Part shown: one piece after another, positions 1 to 20,219 of the stretch
Layout of the letters: each line of letters begins with the position of its first letter
How positions within the stretch are numbered: the stretch's first letter is position 1
From: Sphingomonas anseongensis
GTDB taxonomy: Bacteria; Pseudomonadota; Alphaproteobacteria; Sphingomonadales; Sphingomonadaceae
Length of the DNA: 64,000 nt
Assembly: GCF_023516495.1 (NCBI RefSeq)
Contig: NZ_JAMGBC010000001.1
Location: 1,116,001 to 1,180,000, forward strand
Reading direction: 5' to 3'
The notes under the pieces: model-generated
Told to the model about the DNA's origin: nothing
What the model saw: only the letters and a program-made list of their open reading frames with translations
Databases searched by the model: none
Program-made: the position numbers and the translations under genes

Positions 1-557
1 TGCCGGCGTGACGGCAGCTTGCCGCTGGAAAGGAGCCCTTCCAGCGCCACCCGGCCGCGCGCGACCCGGCTCTTGATTGTCCCGACGGCGCAACCGCAGA
101 TTTCCGCCGCTTCTTCATAAGCGAAACCGCCGGCACCGACGAGGATAAGCGCCTCGCGCTGCGGCTGCGGCAGGTGCATCAGTGCGCGCTGCATGTCGGC
201 AAGCTCGATATGCCGGTCCTGGCTGGCCGGCGCGGCGAGGATCTTCGAGGCCGTCAGCTCGTCCCATTCACCCTTGAAGCGGGCTCGGCGCATCTGGCTG
301 AGGAAGAGGTTGCGAAGGATGATGAACGTCCACGCGCGCATGTTCGTCCCCGCCTGGAAGCGCTTGCGCGCAGCCCAGGCCTTGAGGAGCGTTTCCTGGA
401 CCAGGTCGTCGGCCAGGTCGCGGCTTCCGGAAAGCGAGCGGCCGAAGGCGCGCAGGTGCGGGATCACCGCCGCAAGCTGATCCTTGAACTCAGGATCGGA
501 GAGCGGAATCAGCTCTTCGGGCTTGTCAGCCGCGTCGTCGTCGTCAGTTGCGGCCAT
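1..557 (-). CDS. ecfG: EcfG-type general stress sigma factor (3' end cut by window edge)
   Basis: I read 185 codons leftward from an ATG at 557; the frame is still open at base 1, so the C-terminus is missing. ECF sigma factors have region 2 (core RNA polymerase and -10 binding) and region 4 (-35 binding) and little else. Region 2 is visible at about residues 50-61 (DDLVQETLLKAW) and the region 4 helix-turn-helix at about 146-168 (EEAAEICGCAVGTIKSR). A family length of about 180-190 residues means almost all of it is here. GGGGA precedes the ATG by five bases. The EcfG call rests on phyR and nepR lying within 2 kb. It should direct the alphaproteobacterial stress regulon from GGAAC-N16/17-CGTT promoters and be held inactive by NepR. 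It lies downstream of the 47-residue peptide and its promoter, not behind nepR as is common. Confidence 0.9.
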   Translation of the reverse strand, partial: MAATDDDDAADKPEELIPLSDPEFKDQLAAVIPHLRAFGRSLSGSRDLADDLVQETLLKAWAARKRFQAGTNMRAWTFIILRNLFLSQMRRARFKGEWDELTASKILAAPASQDRHIELADMQRALMHLPQPQREALILVGAGGFAYEEAAEICGCAVGTIKSRVARGRVALEGLLSSGKLPSRR

Positions 558-824: not shown

Positions 825-849
825 AACGCCGCTTGCGGAACCATGTTCC
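825..849 (-). promoter_or_regulatory. EcfG (general stress) promoter for the 47-residue peptide and ecfG
   Basis: Read on the minus strand this is GGAAC (849-845), a 16-base spacer, then CGTT (828-825), an exact match to the EcfG/SigT consensus GGAAC-N16/17-CGTT. Transcription would start near 818-820, about 25 bases before the peptide ATG at 794. It gives positive autoregulation of ecfG and separates the peptide and ecfG from phyR, whose stop codon is at 904. Confidence 0.85.
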
Positions 850-903: not shown

Positions 904-1701
904 TCAGGCCGGCACTGTTGCGGCGTCGAAGAAGAGCGCCTGGGCGATCGCCGCCTTCACCGTCGACCGCTGGAACGGCTTCGTAATCAGGAAGGTCGGT
1001 TCGGGTCGCGTCCCGGTCAGGAGCCGCTCGGGAAATGCGGTGATGAAGATCACCGGCACCGAAAATTCGACGAGAATGTCGCGAACCGCGTCGATTCCGC
1101 TGGAATCGTCCGCGAGCTGGATATCAGCGAGGACGAGTCCTGGCGGGCTCTGGCGAGCCATGGACACTGCTTCGTCGCGCGTGACCGCAACTCCGGTGAC
1201 GTTATGACCCAGATCGCGGACGATCGTTTCGATGTCCATCGCGATGATCGGCTCGTCCTCGATGATGAGGACGTCGGTCAGGGTCTGACGCTCGATCTCG
1301 CTAAGCGCTTCGGCAACCAGCGATTCGACGTCGTCGGGGCTGGCGCCGATCAGGTAACCGGCATCCTCCGACGAAAATCCCTCCAGCGACGTAAGAAGGA
1401 GCGCCTGGCGCGACAGCGGTGTGATCTTCGAAAGCCGGGCGTGGGCAATGCCCTCGGCGCCGGAAATGTCCTTCGACGGCTCCTCGCCCTCCTCCACGTT
1501 GGCAGTCGACCAGATGGCGTGAAACGTCTTGTAGAGACCCAATCGGGGGTCGACGTCGCGCGGGAACTCGTCCGGCTGCGCGACAATGGCTTCCAGCGTA
1601 GCGCGCACGAAGGCGTCGCCATGGGCCTGGCTGCCGGTCAGCGCGCGCGCGTAGCGGCGCAGGAATGGCAGATGTGGCGCAAGTTCCTGTCCAAGCGACA
1701 T
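904..1701 (-). CDS. phyR: PhyR anti-anti-sigma response regulator
   Basis: 265 residues with the PhyR domain order: a sigma-like domain that mimics EcfG (about 1-130) fused to a C-terminal receiver (about 141-262). The receiver shows the acidic pocket (IIEDEP at 146-151), phosphoacceptor Asp193 (LADIQLADD), the TAF element (VIFITAFPERLLTG) and the conserved Lys in ITKPF. In the known mechanism, phosphorylated PhyR opens its sigma-like domain, captures NepR and frees EcfG. The family length and all receiver residues are intact. It starts at ATG 1701, is divergent from nepR across a 292-bp gap, and is followed on the same strand by the peptide gene and ecfG. A weak EcfG-like element in the divergent region (1820-1847) could feed back on it. 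Confidence 0.95.
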   Translation of the reverse strand: MSLGQELAPHLPFLRRYARALTGSQAHGDAFVRATLEAIVAQPDEFPRDVDPRLGLYKTFHAIWSTANVEEGEEPSKDISGAEGIAHARLSKITPLSRQALLLTSLEGFSSEDAGYLIGASPDDVESLVAEALSEIERQTLTDVLIIEDEPIIAMDIETIVRDLGHNVTGVAVTRDEAVSMARQSPPGLVLADIQLADDSSGIDAVRDILVEFSVPVIFITAFPERLLTGTRPEPTFLITKPFQRSTVKAAIAQALFFDAATVPA

Positions 1702-1993: not shown

Positions 1994-2194
1994 ATGGATA
2001 GGTTGAGTGACAGCAAGGTGGGCGATTCGGGCGGGCCCAAGGTGAGCAAGAAGATCAGTGCGGCCAGGCGGCCGATCAAGCCGCGCGGGAAGCGCGGTGC
2101 CGACGTCGGCCGGGCGCTTCGATCCGTCTATGACGAGACTTTGCGCGAAGAGGTGCCCGACGATTTCCTCGACCTGCTCGGCAAGCTCAATTGA
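1994..2194 (+). CDS. nepR: NepR anti-sigma factor
   Basis: 66 residues, the usual size of NepR. The C-terminal half carries the diagnostic helices: GRALRSVYDETLREEVPDDF followed by LDLLGKL (residues 39-65). These wrap around EcfG in unstressed cells and around PhyR when PhyR is phosphorylated. The N-terminal 38 residues are basic and low-complexity, as is typical. It starts at the ATG at 1994, five to eight bases after a G-rich tract (GGGGGG). It is followed after 21 bases by the PhyP-like gene on the same strand. In many alphaproteobacteria nepR is instead translationally coupled to ecfG; here ecfG is 1.4 kb away on the other strand. Confidence 0.92.
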   Translation: MDRLSDSKVGDSGGPKVSKKISAARRPIKPRGKRGADVGRALRSVYDETLREEVPDDFLDLLGKLN

Positions 2195-2215: not shown

Positions 2216-3754
2216 GTGATGGCCGCTGCCGCCGAGCGTTTCGCCCGTCTCTCGACGCCGGCGAAGCTGTTGCTGATCCTCACCGCGGCGCTTCTTCCCA
2301 TCGGGTTCGGACTGGGTTGGGTGGCCTATGCGGGCATTCGCGAGGCTAATGCGACCCTCCAGGCGCAATCGAACGACAAGGCGCGCAATGCTGCCCGCGC
2401 GATCGAAAGCCTCGTTGCCCGAAACGCGCTCGCGCTCCGAGTGGCCGCTAACGGGAGGATGGAGGGCCCCGACCCGTGCGGCCCGGTCCAACGCTCGCTG
2501 ACCATCGCCCCCGCCGTGGCACAGCAGTTCCGCCTCGAAACTCCAGAGGGGCAGCCGATGTGCAGTGTCGGCGATATCGGCGATACCGGCCTTCTTTCCC
2601 CGGTCGCGCCCGGAGACATCCGGCTTCGGGTCGCTCCCGACGAGGATTCGCTGATCCTGCAGGTCGGCGTAGTCGGCGGCATCGCGACAACCACCCTTTC
2701 GACCACCGAGCTGCGCTCTGCCGCACTTGACGGCGGAAGCGTGGTTCACGGCGTCGCGATCAAGGACGGACAGCGCCAGATCGACATTATGAGTGCGGAA
2801 GAGAATTCCGAACCTGGGCATGAGCCGTCGGTGACCCGCTGGGCGATCGCCAACGGCCGGCTGATGGTCGAAGTCGAGGGCCAGGTGCCGACCGTCACGA
2901 CCGGCGACCGGATCGTGATCCTGCTTCCCGTCGTCATGTGGTTCATCGCTGCGCTGATGACGTGGTTGATGGTCACGCGGCTGCTGATCCGGCCTCTCCG
3001 GCGGCTGCAGCGCGTGGTTTCGCAATATGAACCCGGCGGTCCTGCGCTCGAGCTCCCAAGGAAGCTTGGCCCGGCGACCGAAATCCAGGAGCTTCGCGAC
3101 GCTTTTGCCCGTGCGGTGACCCGGGTCCAGGAGTCCGAAGGGGAAATGACCGCCGCACTTGAGGGCCAGCGCCGGCTTGTTCGCGAGGTTCATCACCGGG
3201 TGAAGAACAATCTGCAGGTGATTGCCTCGCTACTCAGCATCCATGGGCGAACCACCGAAAGCGAAGCCGGCAGAGCCGCTTACGGAGCGATCGGGCGAAG
3301 GGTAAGCGCGCTCGCGATCGTCCACCGCAACCATTATGCGGAAATGGAGGAAAACCGCGGAATCTCGATCCGGCCCCTGTTGTCCGAGCTCGCAGCCGAG
3401 CTTCGCGCCGGAGCGCCCGAGCAGGCCCGACGGGTTTCCGTCGACCTGGAGGTCGAGCCGCTTCACACGACCCAAGACGTCGCCGTGTCGGTCGCTTTCC
3501 TGATCACCGAGGTCGTCGAGTTCGCGATGCTCAACCGTCCCAGCGACCCAGTCGAGATTTCGCTTCGCCGAACAAGCGAGTTGACCGCTCGAATGACGCT
3601 GGCAAGCCCGGTCCTGAACCCGGATGCCGAGGATGTTCGCGAGCAGGTTCAGTTTGAAAGAATCATTGCCGGCCTCGCAAAGCAGTTGCGTTCGACGCTC
3701 GATCGGCGGCTCGGACGCTACAGCGTCGACCTCCCCGTATTTCCCGGGAGATAG
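2216..3754 (+). CDS. phyP: PhyP-like membrane sensor with HisKA_2 H-box and degenerate ATPase domain
   Basis: 512 residues from GTG 2216 (AAAGGAG eight bases upstream; an ATG at 2219 is the alternative). Order: transmembrane helix at about 17-40, a sensor region of about 190 residues outside the membrane, a second helix at about 232-258, a HAMP-like linker, then a HisKA_2 dimerisation domain with an intact H-box (REVHHRVKNNLQVIASLLS, His near 326). The ATP-binding part looks broken. The expected N-box (ELVTNA-like) reads ITEVVEFAM near 431, without the Asn, and no DxGxG box follows. Sphingomonas PhyP, encoded beside phyR, is reported as a negative regulator that probably dephosphorylates PhyR. 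Position, HisKA_2 type and degenerate ATPase fit that role better than an active kinase. The phyP name is an inference from locus and architecture. Confidence 0.75.
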   Translation: MMAAAAERFARLSTPAKLLLILTAALLPIGFGLGWVAYAGIREANATLQAQSNDKARNAARAIESLVARNALALRVAANGRMEGPDPCGPVQRSLTIAPAVAQQFRLETPEGQPMCSVGDIGDTGLLSPVAPGDIRLRVAPDEDSLILQVGVVGGIATTTLSTTELRSAALDGGSVVHGVAIKDGQRQIDIMSAEENSEPGHEPSVTRWAIANGRLMVEVEGQVPTVTTGDRIVILLPVVMWFIAALMTWLMVTRLLIRPLRRLQRVVSQYEPGGPALELPRKLGPATEIQELRDAFARAVTRVQESEGEMTAALEGQRRLVREVHHRVKNNLQVIASLLSIHGRTTESEAGRAAYGAIGRRVSALAIVHRNHYAEMEENRGISIRPLLSELAAELRAGAPEQARRVSVDLEVEPLHTTQDVAVSVAFLITEVVEFAMLNRPSDPVEISLRRTSELTARMTLASPVLNPDAEDVREQVQFERIIAGLAKQLRSTLDRRLGRYSVDLPVFPGR

Positions 3755-3795
3755 GGGATCGTTTCGCTGGTGGCGAAAAAAAATCTGTCTGTGTC

Positions 3796-3821
3796 GGAAC
3801 CGGGGCAAAAGAAGGGGCGTT
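3796..3821 (+). promoter_or_regulatory. EcfG promoter for the predicted GsrN-like sRNA
   Basis: GGAAC at 3796-3800, a 17-base spacer, and CGTT at 3818-3821: an exact EcfG-type promoter on the plus strand, 41 bases after the stop of the sensor gene. No plus-strand coding frame follows, because the next 800 bases are tatC on the other strand. The expected start site (about 3827-3829) coincides with the left arm of a hairpin, as expected for a promoter that makes a non-coding RNA. Confidence 0.85.
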
Positions 3822-3827
3822 TGGTAC

Positions 3828-3933
3828 TTCGGATAGTGACCTTTTGCCCCCCCGCTCTCGCTATCCGATTAAATGGGCCCGGAACCGCCAACCCTCCCCC
3901 CCCCCGGTGGCGCTTCCGGGCCCTCACTTTTTT
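3828..3933 (+). ncRNA. Predicted general stress sRNA, GsrN-like, with C-rich loops
   Basis: About 106 nt between an EcfG promoter and a terminator. Hairpin 1: 3829-3839 pairs with 3858-3868 (core TCGGATAG/CTATCCGA plus three more pairs, one G-U). It exposes an 18-nt loop, 3840-3857, that contains CCTTTTGCCCCCCC. Hairpin 2: 3875-3884 pairs perfectly with 3914-3923 (GGGCCCGGAA/TTCCGGGCCC), with an inner CGCCA/TGGCG stem and a loop holding ten consecutive C. It is followed by TCAC and six T. Caulobacter GsrN is a SigT-dependent sRNA of similar size encoded in the GSR locus, with a C-rich 5' loop that binds mRNA leaders and a 3' terminator hairpin. The resemblance is architectural; I could not compare sequences. 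The 3' half overlaps the last 18 or so codons of tatC in antisense. The C-rich loops could pair with purine-rich Shine-Dalgarno sequences. Confidence 0.72.
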
Positions 3934-4696
3934 CAGCTGAAGCCGACGCCGACGCATTGCGCGCGGCTCGCCAGTGCGTGACCCGAATCGCCAGGATCGC
4001 CAGCTCGTAAAGTGAGTAGAGGGGAACAAGCAGAAGCATCATCGACACCGCGTCCGGCGGGGTCAGGACGGCGGAAACGGCCGCTGACGCGACGATCGCG
4101 TAGCGACGGTGCTTGGTGAGCTGCTGCAGAGTGACGATCCCGGTCCGCTCCAGAATCATCAGCAGGATCGGAGTTAGGAATGCCACCCCGAAGCCGAACA
4201 GGAAGCGGGTGCAGAAGGTGAGGTAGTTTCCGACGCCCGGAAGCGCCTCGCGCTGGACTCCGCCGACGTCGCCCTGGAACCCCAGCAGGAAGTGCAGCGC
4301 CCAGGGCATCGCGACGTAGTAGGCGAAGGCTGCCCCTGTGAGGAAAAACACCGGCGTCAGCATCAGGAACGGAAGCAGCGCCTTCTTCTCCTTGGCGTAG
4401 AGCCCGGGAGCGACGAACTTCCAGATCTGGATCGCGAAGAAGGGGAAGCCCAGCATTAGGGCAGCGAACAGCGCGACCTTCACCTCCGCGAAGAAAGCTT
4501 CGAAGACATCGGTGTAGATAAGTCGCCCTTCGCCGGCCTGGAGAAGCGGCTGGACGAGGAAACCGAAGATCGGCTTGGCGAAGTAGAGGCAGGCGGCGAA
4601 CAGAAGCACCAGAAGCCCGACCGACCACAGGAGCCGACGCCTCAGCTCGATCAGATGCTCCATCAGCGGCGCCTTGGTTTCGTCGATGTCTTTCAC
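3869..4696 (-). CDS. tatC: Twin-arginine translocase subunit TatC
   Basis: 275 residues. TatC is the six-helix inner-membrane receptor of the Tat system, which exports folded proteins with twin-arginine signals. The family N-terminus is present (MEHLIELRRRLLWS, residues 12-25), followed by hydrophobic spans, the conserved first periplasmic loop region (TDVFEAFFAEVKVALFAAL) and the later FLFGFGVAFLTPILLMIL and YAIVASAAVSAVLTPPD segments. GTG 4696 overlaps the tatB stop as GTGA. The tail after the last helix (about 250-275) is Ser/Ala/Gly/Pro-rich and coincides in antisense with the predicted sRNA, so part of it may be shaped by RNA constraint. It is the last gene of scpA-scpB-tatA-tatB-tatC. 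No serS follows, though serS often does in alphaproteobacteria. Confidence 0.95.
   Translation of the reverse strand: MKDIDETKAPLMEHLIELRRRLLWSVGLLVLLFAACLYFAKPIFGFLVQPLLQAGEGRLIYTDVFEAFFAEVKVALFAALMLGFPFFAIQIWKFVAPGLYAKEKKALLPFLMLTPVFFLTGAAFAYYVAMPWALHFLLGFQGDVGGVQREALPGVGNYLTFCTRFLFGFGVAFLTPILLMILERTGIVTLQQLTKHRRYAIVASAAVSAVLTPPDAVSMMLLLVPLYSLYELAILAIRVTHWRAARNASASASAEKSEGPEAPPGGGRVGGSGPI
3875..3933 (+). terminator. Rho-independent terminator of the predicted sRNA
   Basis: A perfect 10-bp GC-rich stem (3875-3884 with 3914-3923), a second inner stem of 5 bp, and six T at 3928-3933. It is a strong intrinsic terminator on the plus strand. It lies inside the 3' end of tatC and encodes TatC's odd Gly/Pro-rich tail on the opposite strand. 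Confidence 0.8.
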
Positions 4697-5921: not shown

Positions 5922-6676
5922 CAGGCGGCAACCTTCAGGCTCAAGGGAGCGAAAGCTTCCTCCTGCAACAGGTCGAGGCGGCCGCGGCGGGCGAGCTCGA
6001 GAGCCGCGAGGAAGCTGGACGCGAGCGCGGAGCGGCGAAGCTGGGGATCGTCGGTCTGGGGAAGGAAGGCCTCCAGCTGCATCCACTCGATCGCCATCCC
6101 GAGCATCGCGCTGACCCGCTCTATCGCTTCTTCGAGAGTCATCACGGAGCGGGCATGGACGACGTGCATCGGCGGCTGGCTTCGTGCCTTCACCGCTCCA
6201 TAGGCTGCGTAGAGATCGAAGGCGCTGACCTGCCAGGCGGACTTGCGGACGAGCCGGAGCCCTTCCGGCGCTCCGCGCTGGAACACGTCGCGGCCAACCC
6301 GGTCACGGCCAAGAAGGCGCGCCCCGGCCTCGCGCATGGCATCCAGCCGCTGGAGCCGCATCTGGAGCCGGAGAGCGATCTCCTCGGGGCTGGGATCTGC
6401 CTCCGGATCCTTTGGAAGCAGGAGGCAGGATTTCAGGTAGGCGAGCCACGCTGCCATCACGAGATAATCGGCGGCGATCTCGAGCTTCAGCGCGCGCGCA
6501 TCGCTCAAATAGGCAAGATATTGCTCGACGAGGTCGAGGATCGAGATTTGCGCGAGGTCGACCTTCTGCGAGCGCGCTAAGCTCAGCAGCAGGTCGAGCG
6601 GGCCCTCCCAGCCGTCGAGGGTGAGATTGAGCTCGTCGCCGTCGCGAGCAGCCGAATTGAGCGTCACAACCGCCAC
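5921..6676 (-). CDS. scpA: Segregation and condensation protein A (kleisin)
   Basis: 251 residues starting at GTG 6676. ScpA is the kleisin bridging SMC heads. The N-terminal signature FxGPLDLLLSL is present as GWEGPLDLLLSLARSQKVDL (22-41), followed by ISILDLVEQYL and AADYLVMAAWLAYLKSCLLL. The C-terminal winged helix that contacts the SMC head contains FLAALELARRGRLDLLQEE. It is coupled to scpB by a one-base overlap. The 88-bp gap upstream to the S10 peptidase gene is AT-richer than its surroundings and may hold a promoter. Confidence 0.93.
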   Translation of the reverse strand: MAVVTLNSAARDGDELNLTLDGWEGPLDLLLSLARSQKVDLAQISILDLVEQYLAYLSDARALKLEIAADYLVMAAWLAYLKSCLLLPKDPEADPSPEEIALRLQMRLQRLDAMREAGARLLGRDRVGRDVFQRGAPEGLRLVRKSAWQVSAFDLYAAYGAVKARSQPPMHVVHARSVMTLEEAIERVSAMLGMAIEWMQLEAFLPQTDDPQLRRSALASSFLAALELARRGRLDLLQEEAFAPLSLKVAA

Positions 6677-20128: not shown

Positions 20129-20219
20129 TTCGCCCTCCCCCAAAGACAGCGACGGTTAATGCACTTGCGAGCAGTGTGACGCCAGTCCAACTTGCTGCGT
20201 TCACGAGTCCAGCGCCCGT

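Follow-up and report, generated by a model that had tools for sequence, protein, structure and literature searches.

A predicted small RNA gene with two C-rich loops in the general stress response locus of Sphingomonas anseongensis

Gene content of the locus and the predicted RNA

The window (i.e. the whole stretch of 64,000 nucleotides that was analysed) comes from a genome of 2.23 Mb. Near its start lie genes for an ECF sigma factor, PhyR, NepR, a histidine kinase and TatC, which by their protein domains are a general stress response (GSR) locus (Table 1). The sigma factor was named EcfG because its neighbours are PhyR and NepR. A predicted small RNA (sRNA) gene lies between the kinase gene and tatC.

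Table 1. Features of the GSR locus and of the predicted sRNA gene (positions in the window).
Feature	Position	Strand	Evidence and remarks
ecfG, ECF sigma factor of the general stress response	3..557	-	Pfam sigma-70 regions 2 and 4
phyR, anti-anti-sigma response regulator	904..1701	-	Pfam PhyR_sigma2, PhyR_sigma-like, Response_reg
nepR, anti-sigma factor	1994..2191	+	Pfam NepR, 3.6e-11
HisKA_2/HWE histidine kinase, directly upstream of the sRNA	2216..3754	+	Pfam HisKA_2, 1.2e-17
EcfG-type promoter, GGAAC-N17-CGTT	3796..3821	+	Sequence; GGAAC 3796-3800, CGTT 3818-3821
Predicted sRNA, about 105 nt	3826..3933	+	5' end inferred from promoter spacing
Hairpin 1, presumed pairing loop	3829..3868	+	Fold; stem 3829-3839 with 3858-3868, 11 bp
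tatC, convergent with the sRNA	3869..4696	-	Pfam TatC, 1.8e-67
Hairpin 2, terminator-like, loop with CCCTCCCCCCCCCC	3875..3923	+	Fold; stem of 10 + 5 + 2 bp
T6 tract 3' of hairpin 2	3928..3933	+	Sequence

The initial annotation had described an exact EcfG promoter with no coding frame after it, followed by two hairpins with C-rich loops, as an sRNA gene in the GSR locus. The promoter sequence, both structures and the neighbouring genes agree with this description. The kinase gene ends before the promoter, and the short open reading frames called mechanically over the region are probably not real, because the promoter spacer and both C-runs differ in length among relatives. The loop of hairpin 1 (3840-3857) consists of 18 nt, CCTTTTGCCCCCCCGCTC, with seven C in a row at 3847-3853. 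Hairpin 2 has ten C in its loop (3896-3905), and the CCTCC in this loop is anti-Shine-Dalgarno-like in sequence.

RNA folding of 3826-3935 reproduced both hairpins. The minimum free energy was -48.8 kcal/mol, compared with a mean of -27.3 for shuffled sequences (z -7.2), and none of the 200 shuffles was as good as the native sequence. The opposite strand also folded well (z -5.4), as is expected for stems. Between 3000 and 5000, neither a sigma-70 promoter nor a terminator-like site was detected by a simple scan, which considered loops of 3-8 nt only. Complementarity of the promoter-spacer sequence GGGGCAAAAG to loop 1 was not maintained in relatives. When the whole window was compared with Rfam 15, only one tRNA was found, and the sRNA interval had no match at the gathering score; at E values up to 5, the interval 3750-3960 matched MIR2933 and Pxr, both far below the gathering score.

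Further exact EcfG promoter patterns occur elsewhere in the window. Those at 20219 (+) and 57121 (-) lie 28 and 66 nt, respectively, upstream of start codons that we called ourselves, and one at about 825-849 (-) falls inside a gene that we called on the ecfG side.

Conservation, covariation and distribution

We searched 149 genomes, including the source genome, by blastn with window 3790-3940 as the query. Matches at E ≤ 0.1 were obtained in 82 genomes, and those outside the genus were mostly noise. Within the genus, the sRNA was matched in 68 of the 70 other sampled members at E ≤ 1e-15, with the copy in G051 cut by a contig end. The two exceptions, G005 (only E 0.04) and G027 (no match), have a completeness of 77% and 79%, respectively.

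For the alignment of 72 copies, rows with a match to the promoter pattern were retained, so that these copies were chosen by their promoter. Of these, 69 belong to the genus, G003 contributing two, and the other three were taken from different genera. Five of the 77 loci were omitted: two pieces at contig ends, the unrelated L075, L074 (no blastn match at 0.01) and L001, which duplicates the source genome's own copy. GGAAC-N16/17-CGTT is present in all 72 copies as a result of this selection, with a spacer of 17 nt in 43 and 16 nt in 29 copies. The distance from CGTT to the GGATAG of hairpin 1 is exactly 9 nt in 72/72. In hairpin 1, 24 of the 40 positions are invariant and 11 more are at least 90% identical (35/40 in all), compared with a majority identity in the genus of 56-61% for the promoter spacer and 49% for the upstream flank. 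The terminator-like hairpin with its C10 loop and the T-tract described in the annotation are present in the source genome, but a T-rich tail (at least five T in the 8 nt after hairpin 2) was found in only 42 of the 72 copies.

Both stems showed compensatory changes. In the 72-copy alignment, 11 base pairs were changed on both sides, and none of 500 shuffles scored as high. A second alignment held 89 copies at E ≤ 1e-6, of which 14 are from the source genus and 75 from elsewhere in the family. This alignment, which was fitted to the model and hence leans towards it, had 26 of the 28 pairs changed on both sides (10/11 in hairpin 1 and 16/17 in hairpin 2), with 93.7% of the cells paired. Again, 0/500 shuffles were as high, here on all five measures, and the paired share dropped to 28-45% in slid controls.

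The C-runs were conserved as well. Runs of at least six C occur in both halves of the RNA in 72/72 and 86/89 copies of the two alignments, and in the first hairpin region in 72/72 and 88/89. Hence, the second C-rich loop, which the annotation had singled out as a feature of its own, is indeed conserved; its region contains CCTCC in 68/72 and 54/89 copies. A second RNA was seen in a single genome, G351 (locus L155, C1:2287347-2297445; RNA at 5999-6095). There, an EcfG promoter pattern is followed by CCTTTTGCCCCCCCGCTCTC in an unrelated stem and by a terminator that differs from that of the main sRNA. Because the same loop sits in a different stem, it looks like a module.

The wider distribution was studied with a covariance model (R1; E ≤ 0.01, strict filters) in 298 genomes from 96 genera of the family. 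Raw matches were found in 106 genomes and 38 genera, and 192 genomes had no match under these filters. We inspected 73 of the 81 fetched matches and judged 68 copies credible. Five weak matches (L128, L150, L151, L156 and L157) had neither promoter nor hairpin 1 and were dropped; three of these were the sole match of their genome and genus. After inspection, 103/298 genomes and 35/96 genera hold the sRNA, where every one of the 35 genera is represented by one or more inspected copies and the remaining genomes are counted from the R1 match alone. GGAAC stands at the right distance in 66 of the 68 inspected copies, 54 with a strict CGTT and 12 with an altered -10 box. Close relatives thus retain the promoter. 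The annotation had named non-conserved stems and a promoter missing from close relatives as a refuting outcome, and this outcome did not occur. The loop core CCCCCCGCTC was present in 64/68 copies, and the 5' portion of the loop (CCTTTT) differs among genera. That 35 genera retain one loop core downstream of an EcfG promoter pattern points to strong selection on a regulator.

A sample drawn from the whole order gave matches at E ≤ 0.1 in 37 of 196 genomes, every one in the Sphingomonadaceae. A pattern scan of named genomes matched at least 120 stretches; the matches listed (80 loci) include Sphingomonas, Sphingomicrobium, Sphingosinicella, Stakelama, Hephaestia, Rhizorhabdus, Parasphingopyxis and Sphingorhabdus, as well as less precisely named or metagenome-derived records. 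The laboratory strain Sphingomonas echinoides ATCC 14820 is among the carriers of the RNA. A broader model (R2), applied to 385 genomes of the class with strict filters, had no convincing member outside the family: it matched the source genome, one family member and, weakly, a sequence in G601 that has no EcfG promoter.

Gene order around the sRNA was compared in 33 credible loci of at least 4 kb. PhyR and the kinase lie upstream in 19 of them, and tatC lies downstream in 27, often followed by tatB, tatA, scpB and scpA. Neither a clear PhyR nor tatC was found beside the sRNA in four loci, of which one is at a contig end and one is the second copy L155. In the source genome, the coding sequence for the tail of tatC extends across hairpin 2 on the opposite strand (3869-3923), and the annotation had taken this antisense overlap for another feature in its own right. 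tatC was identified beside 71 aligned copies; its frame runs into or through the sRNA in 49 of them, and the position of its stop varies. The frame does so in 0/27 loci with tatC from other genera, where the stop lies 61-2083 bases past the RNA. Since the stop varies within the genus and the overlap is missing from all 27 loci of other genera, we rejected it as a core feature. On this comparison of sequences, it is regarded as incidental to the source genus among the loci examined.

Search for target sequences

G-rich sites in mRNA leaders had been suggested as pairing partners. In a sample of the source genome (C1:1-800000 and the window; 864 kb, G+C 64%, 711 self-called genes), we examined the 27 nt before translation starts. 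Of the sequences complementary to loop 1, GAGCGGG occurred 21 times there (3.3 expected) and GGAGCGGG 12 times (0.8 expected); the loop 2 complement GGAGGGTT occurred six times (0.2 expected). The same count in G170, a family genome without the sRNA (414 kb, G+C 57%), gave one GAGCGGG (0.6 expected) and neither GGAGCGGG nor GGAGGGTT; the loop-2-like GGGAGGG was enriched (4 versus 0.1 expected).

Across genomes, GGAGCGGG-N2-10-ATG was compared with the permuted motif GGAGGCGG-N2-10-ATG in 40 genomes with and 39 genomes without the sRNA. The median ratios were 0.66 and 0.70, respectively (p 0.42), so that the two sets were not separated, and counts of GGAGGGTT were low in both. The source genome had a ratio of 1.74, the highest of 15 genus members. 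Most of its genus-mates have no excess over the permuted motif (ratio of at least 1 in 3/14). We rejected the ribosome-binding-site motif as evidence for targets, because the enrichment in the source genome failed across genomes.

The leader of katG was examined in 30 of the 68 katG-bearing genomes of the genus, the source genome excluded, and had no G-run longer than four within 140 nt. The mean duplex energy of these 30 leaders was -17.2 versus -18.1 for shuffled sequences, with single leaders down to -28.7 kcal/mol. With no complementary G-tract in the 30 leaders and no mean excess in pairing, katG was discarded as a target in this sequence test. Neither of these two tests yielded a target. 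Duplexes of loop 1 with the 711 translation starts at -24 kcal/mol or below numbered 47, versus 27, 37 and 20 in controls, which is some excess. CGGGGGG had 146 sites in the source genome and its reversed pattern 128, which is no clear excess.

Known RNAs and interpretation

The initial annotation had likened the RNA to GsrN of Caulobacter crescentus (ccna_R0081). According to PMC5869019, GsrN is about 100 nt long, has a Sigma-T/EcfG promoter, six tandem C in its 5' loop and a 3' intrinsic terminator, and lies, like its predicted homologues, usually near ecfG-phyR-nepR. It activates katG by base pairing between its C-rich loop and the leader of the katG mRNA, and its target sites include CGGGGGGC and UCGGGGGGU (PMC5869019). 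The same source describes a second exposed region, endonucleolytic processing to a stable 5' isoform, and stabilisation of the full-length RNA by Hfq (PMC5869019). From the target sites, we infer that the GsrN loop holds CCCCCCGA, which is similar to the CCCCCCG found here.

Our RNA was compared with the published description of GsrN, and the resemblance is one of plan, not of demonstrated sequence homology. The two share an EcfG-class promoter directly upstream, a locus near ecfG-nepR-phyR and a C-rich 5' loop. The predicted size and the terminator-like 3' hairpin (with a T-rich tail in 42/72 copies) would fit as well. In contrast to GsrN, the sphingomonad RNA has a C7 followed by a conserved GCTC, carries a C-run in the terminator loop, and had no visible site in the 30 katG leaders. 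An EcfG promoter combined with CCCCCCGA occurred in nine of 289 genomes of the class, none of them convincing by eye. Inspection by eye of 20 PhyR loci (one from the family, 19 from outside) likewise revealed no comparable promoter-plus-C-loop hairpin. Thus, the general plan, promoter and locus of the comparison held, but no convincing relative appeared outside the family in 385 genomes and the 30 katG leaders lacked a G-tract. By analogy, the sphingomonad sRNA would work like GsrN, while membership in the GsrN family is unproven.

These findings bear on whether the RNA could be a true, strongly diverged GsrN orthologue, i.e. an ancestral GSR-linked sRNA of Alphaproteobacteria whose stems and flanks were replaced while the C-run loop was kept. 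We consider this rather unlikely. It would fit the agreement in locus, size and type of promoter, the C-rich loop in the 5' part, the arrangement of the terminator, the second exposed region of GsrN (PMC5869019) and the resemblance of CCCCCCGA to the loop found here. However, it has to contend with the R2 result for 385 class genomes, the 20 PhyR loci and the 30 katG leaders. Erythrobacter litoralis is an order-mate of the source organism. For this species, the available text of PMC5869019 reports no apparent gsrN-like gene.

Other C-rich sRNAs were compared as well. RFMSmelA075 and RFMSmelA099, which are CCUCCUCCC-loop sRNAs of Rhizobiales, also have C-rich anti-Shine-Dalgarno hairpin loops, variable stems and a link to stress, but they are described with three or four hairpins and CCUCCUCCC in each (PMC3927594), whereas the sphingomonad RNA has two hairpins and contains neither CCUCCUCCC nor CCTCCTCCC in any copy (0/72 and 0/89). 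The SisA-D family of Caulobacter, compared by description only, differs in that no link to the GSR locus is given in the available text (PMC12559287). Our literature search, which covered titles and the beginnings of abstracts and lay mostly outside subscription papers, retrieved no report of a conserved sRNA in the sphingomonad GSR locus among the matches listed. The available portions of PMC8103513 and of a paper on the GSR of Sphingopyxis granuli (PMC7083833) mention no GSR sRNA; the reference list of the latter includes SuhB, a catabolite-repression sRNA. A survey of non-coding RNAs in 26 genomes uses an element from Sphingomonas echinoides in another setting (PMC8632094, as far as its text is available).

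It is improbable, in our view, that the conserved loop is a protein-binding site by which the RNA titrates a C-run-binding protein or an RNA chaperone and pairs with no mRNA. The loop core over 35 genera and the swapped stem of L155 fit a protein site equally well, and no target motif held across genomes, but in GsrN, it is base pairing with the katG leader through which the C-rich loop works (PMC5869019). We give hardly any credence to a mere terminator or 3'-UTR structure common to the kinase and tatC transcripts: although the region sits between convergent genes and its other strand folds well too, a promoter pattern of its own precedes it in 72/72 copies, always at the same distance, termination does not need a hairpin 1 with a conserved loop, and four of the 33 loci (the contig end and L155 among them) have no clear PhyR or tatC alongside.

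We consider it likely that the interval is a gene for an EcfG-transcribed non-coding RNA of about 105 nt, which probably acts in trans via its C-rich loops. In its favour are the promoter, two hairpins, conservation, covariation, synteny, the second locus L155 and the precedent of GsrN (PMC5869019). Against it count the 192 of 298 family genomes with no match under strict filters, the T-rich tail in only 42/72 copies, and the negative results for the 30 katG leaders and for the start-site motif across genomes. The sequence pattern of the gene, its promoter sequence, stems, loops, conservation and synteny were obtained directly; transcription, dependence on EcfG and pairing in trans are predictions. 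Under general stress, RNA polymerase with EcfG would transcribe the sRNA, as its promoter suggests. The 5' hairpin would then display the conserved C7 loop, and the terminator hairpin a second C-rich loop, mostly with CCUCC. Loop 1 is predicted to pair in trans with G-rich stretches of several mRNAs, either in their leaders or at their ribosome-binding sites. Loop 2 could pair with Shine-Dalgarno-like GGAGG sequences. The sRNA thus probably fine-tunes other genes during stress, which would add post-transcriptional control to the general stress response, much as GsrN does in Caulobacter.

More tentatively, the RNA may represent an sRNA family specific to the Sphingomonadaceae, not GsrN by descent, that serves as a post-transcriptional hub of the general stress response. 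Its two loops would be a transplantable loop 1 module (CCTTTTGCCCCCCCGCTCTC in the source genus) for many mRNAs and an anti-Shine-Dalgarno terminator loop. If this hub exists, EcfG-driven C-loop riboregulators would have arisen more than once in Alphaproteobacteria. Sphingomonads are common bacteria of plants, soil and water, and their general stress response has been described at the level of the sigma factor, anti-sigma factor and kinases. With this sRNA, two questions become testable: is an sRNA arm a common part of the stress response in Alphaproteobacteria, and do GsrN-like RNAs reflect shared descent or convergence?

The searches also returned other candidate RNAs with C-rich loops. The weak R2 match in G601, from another family of the class (L178, about 1508-1600), has two hairpins, with GTCCCCCCCG and CCTCCCCC in the loops, and no EcfG promoter, and is perhaps a separate C-loop sRNA. 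Two of the dropped R1 matches (L151, 6001-6086; L156, 5001-5087) resemble terminators, with a GGCCCGG...CCGGGCC hairpin whose loop contains CTCCCCCTCCC, and have neither hairpin 1 nor an EcfG promoter; they are possibly other anti-Shine-Dalgarno sRNAs.
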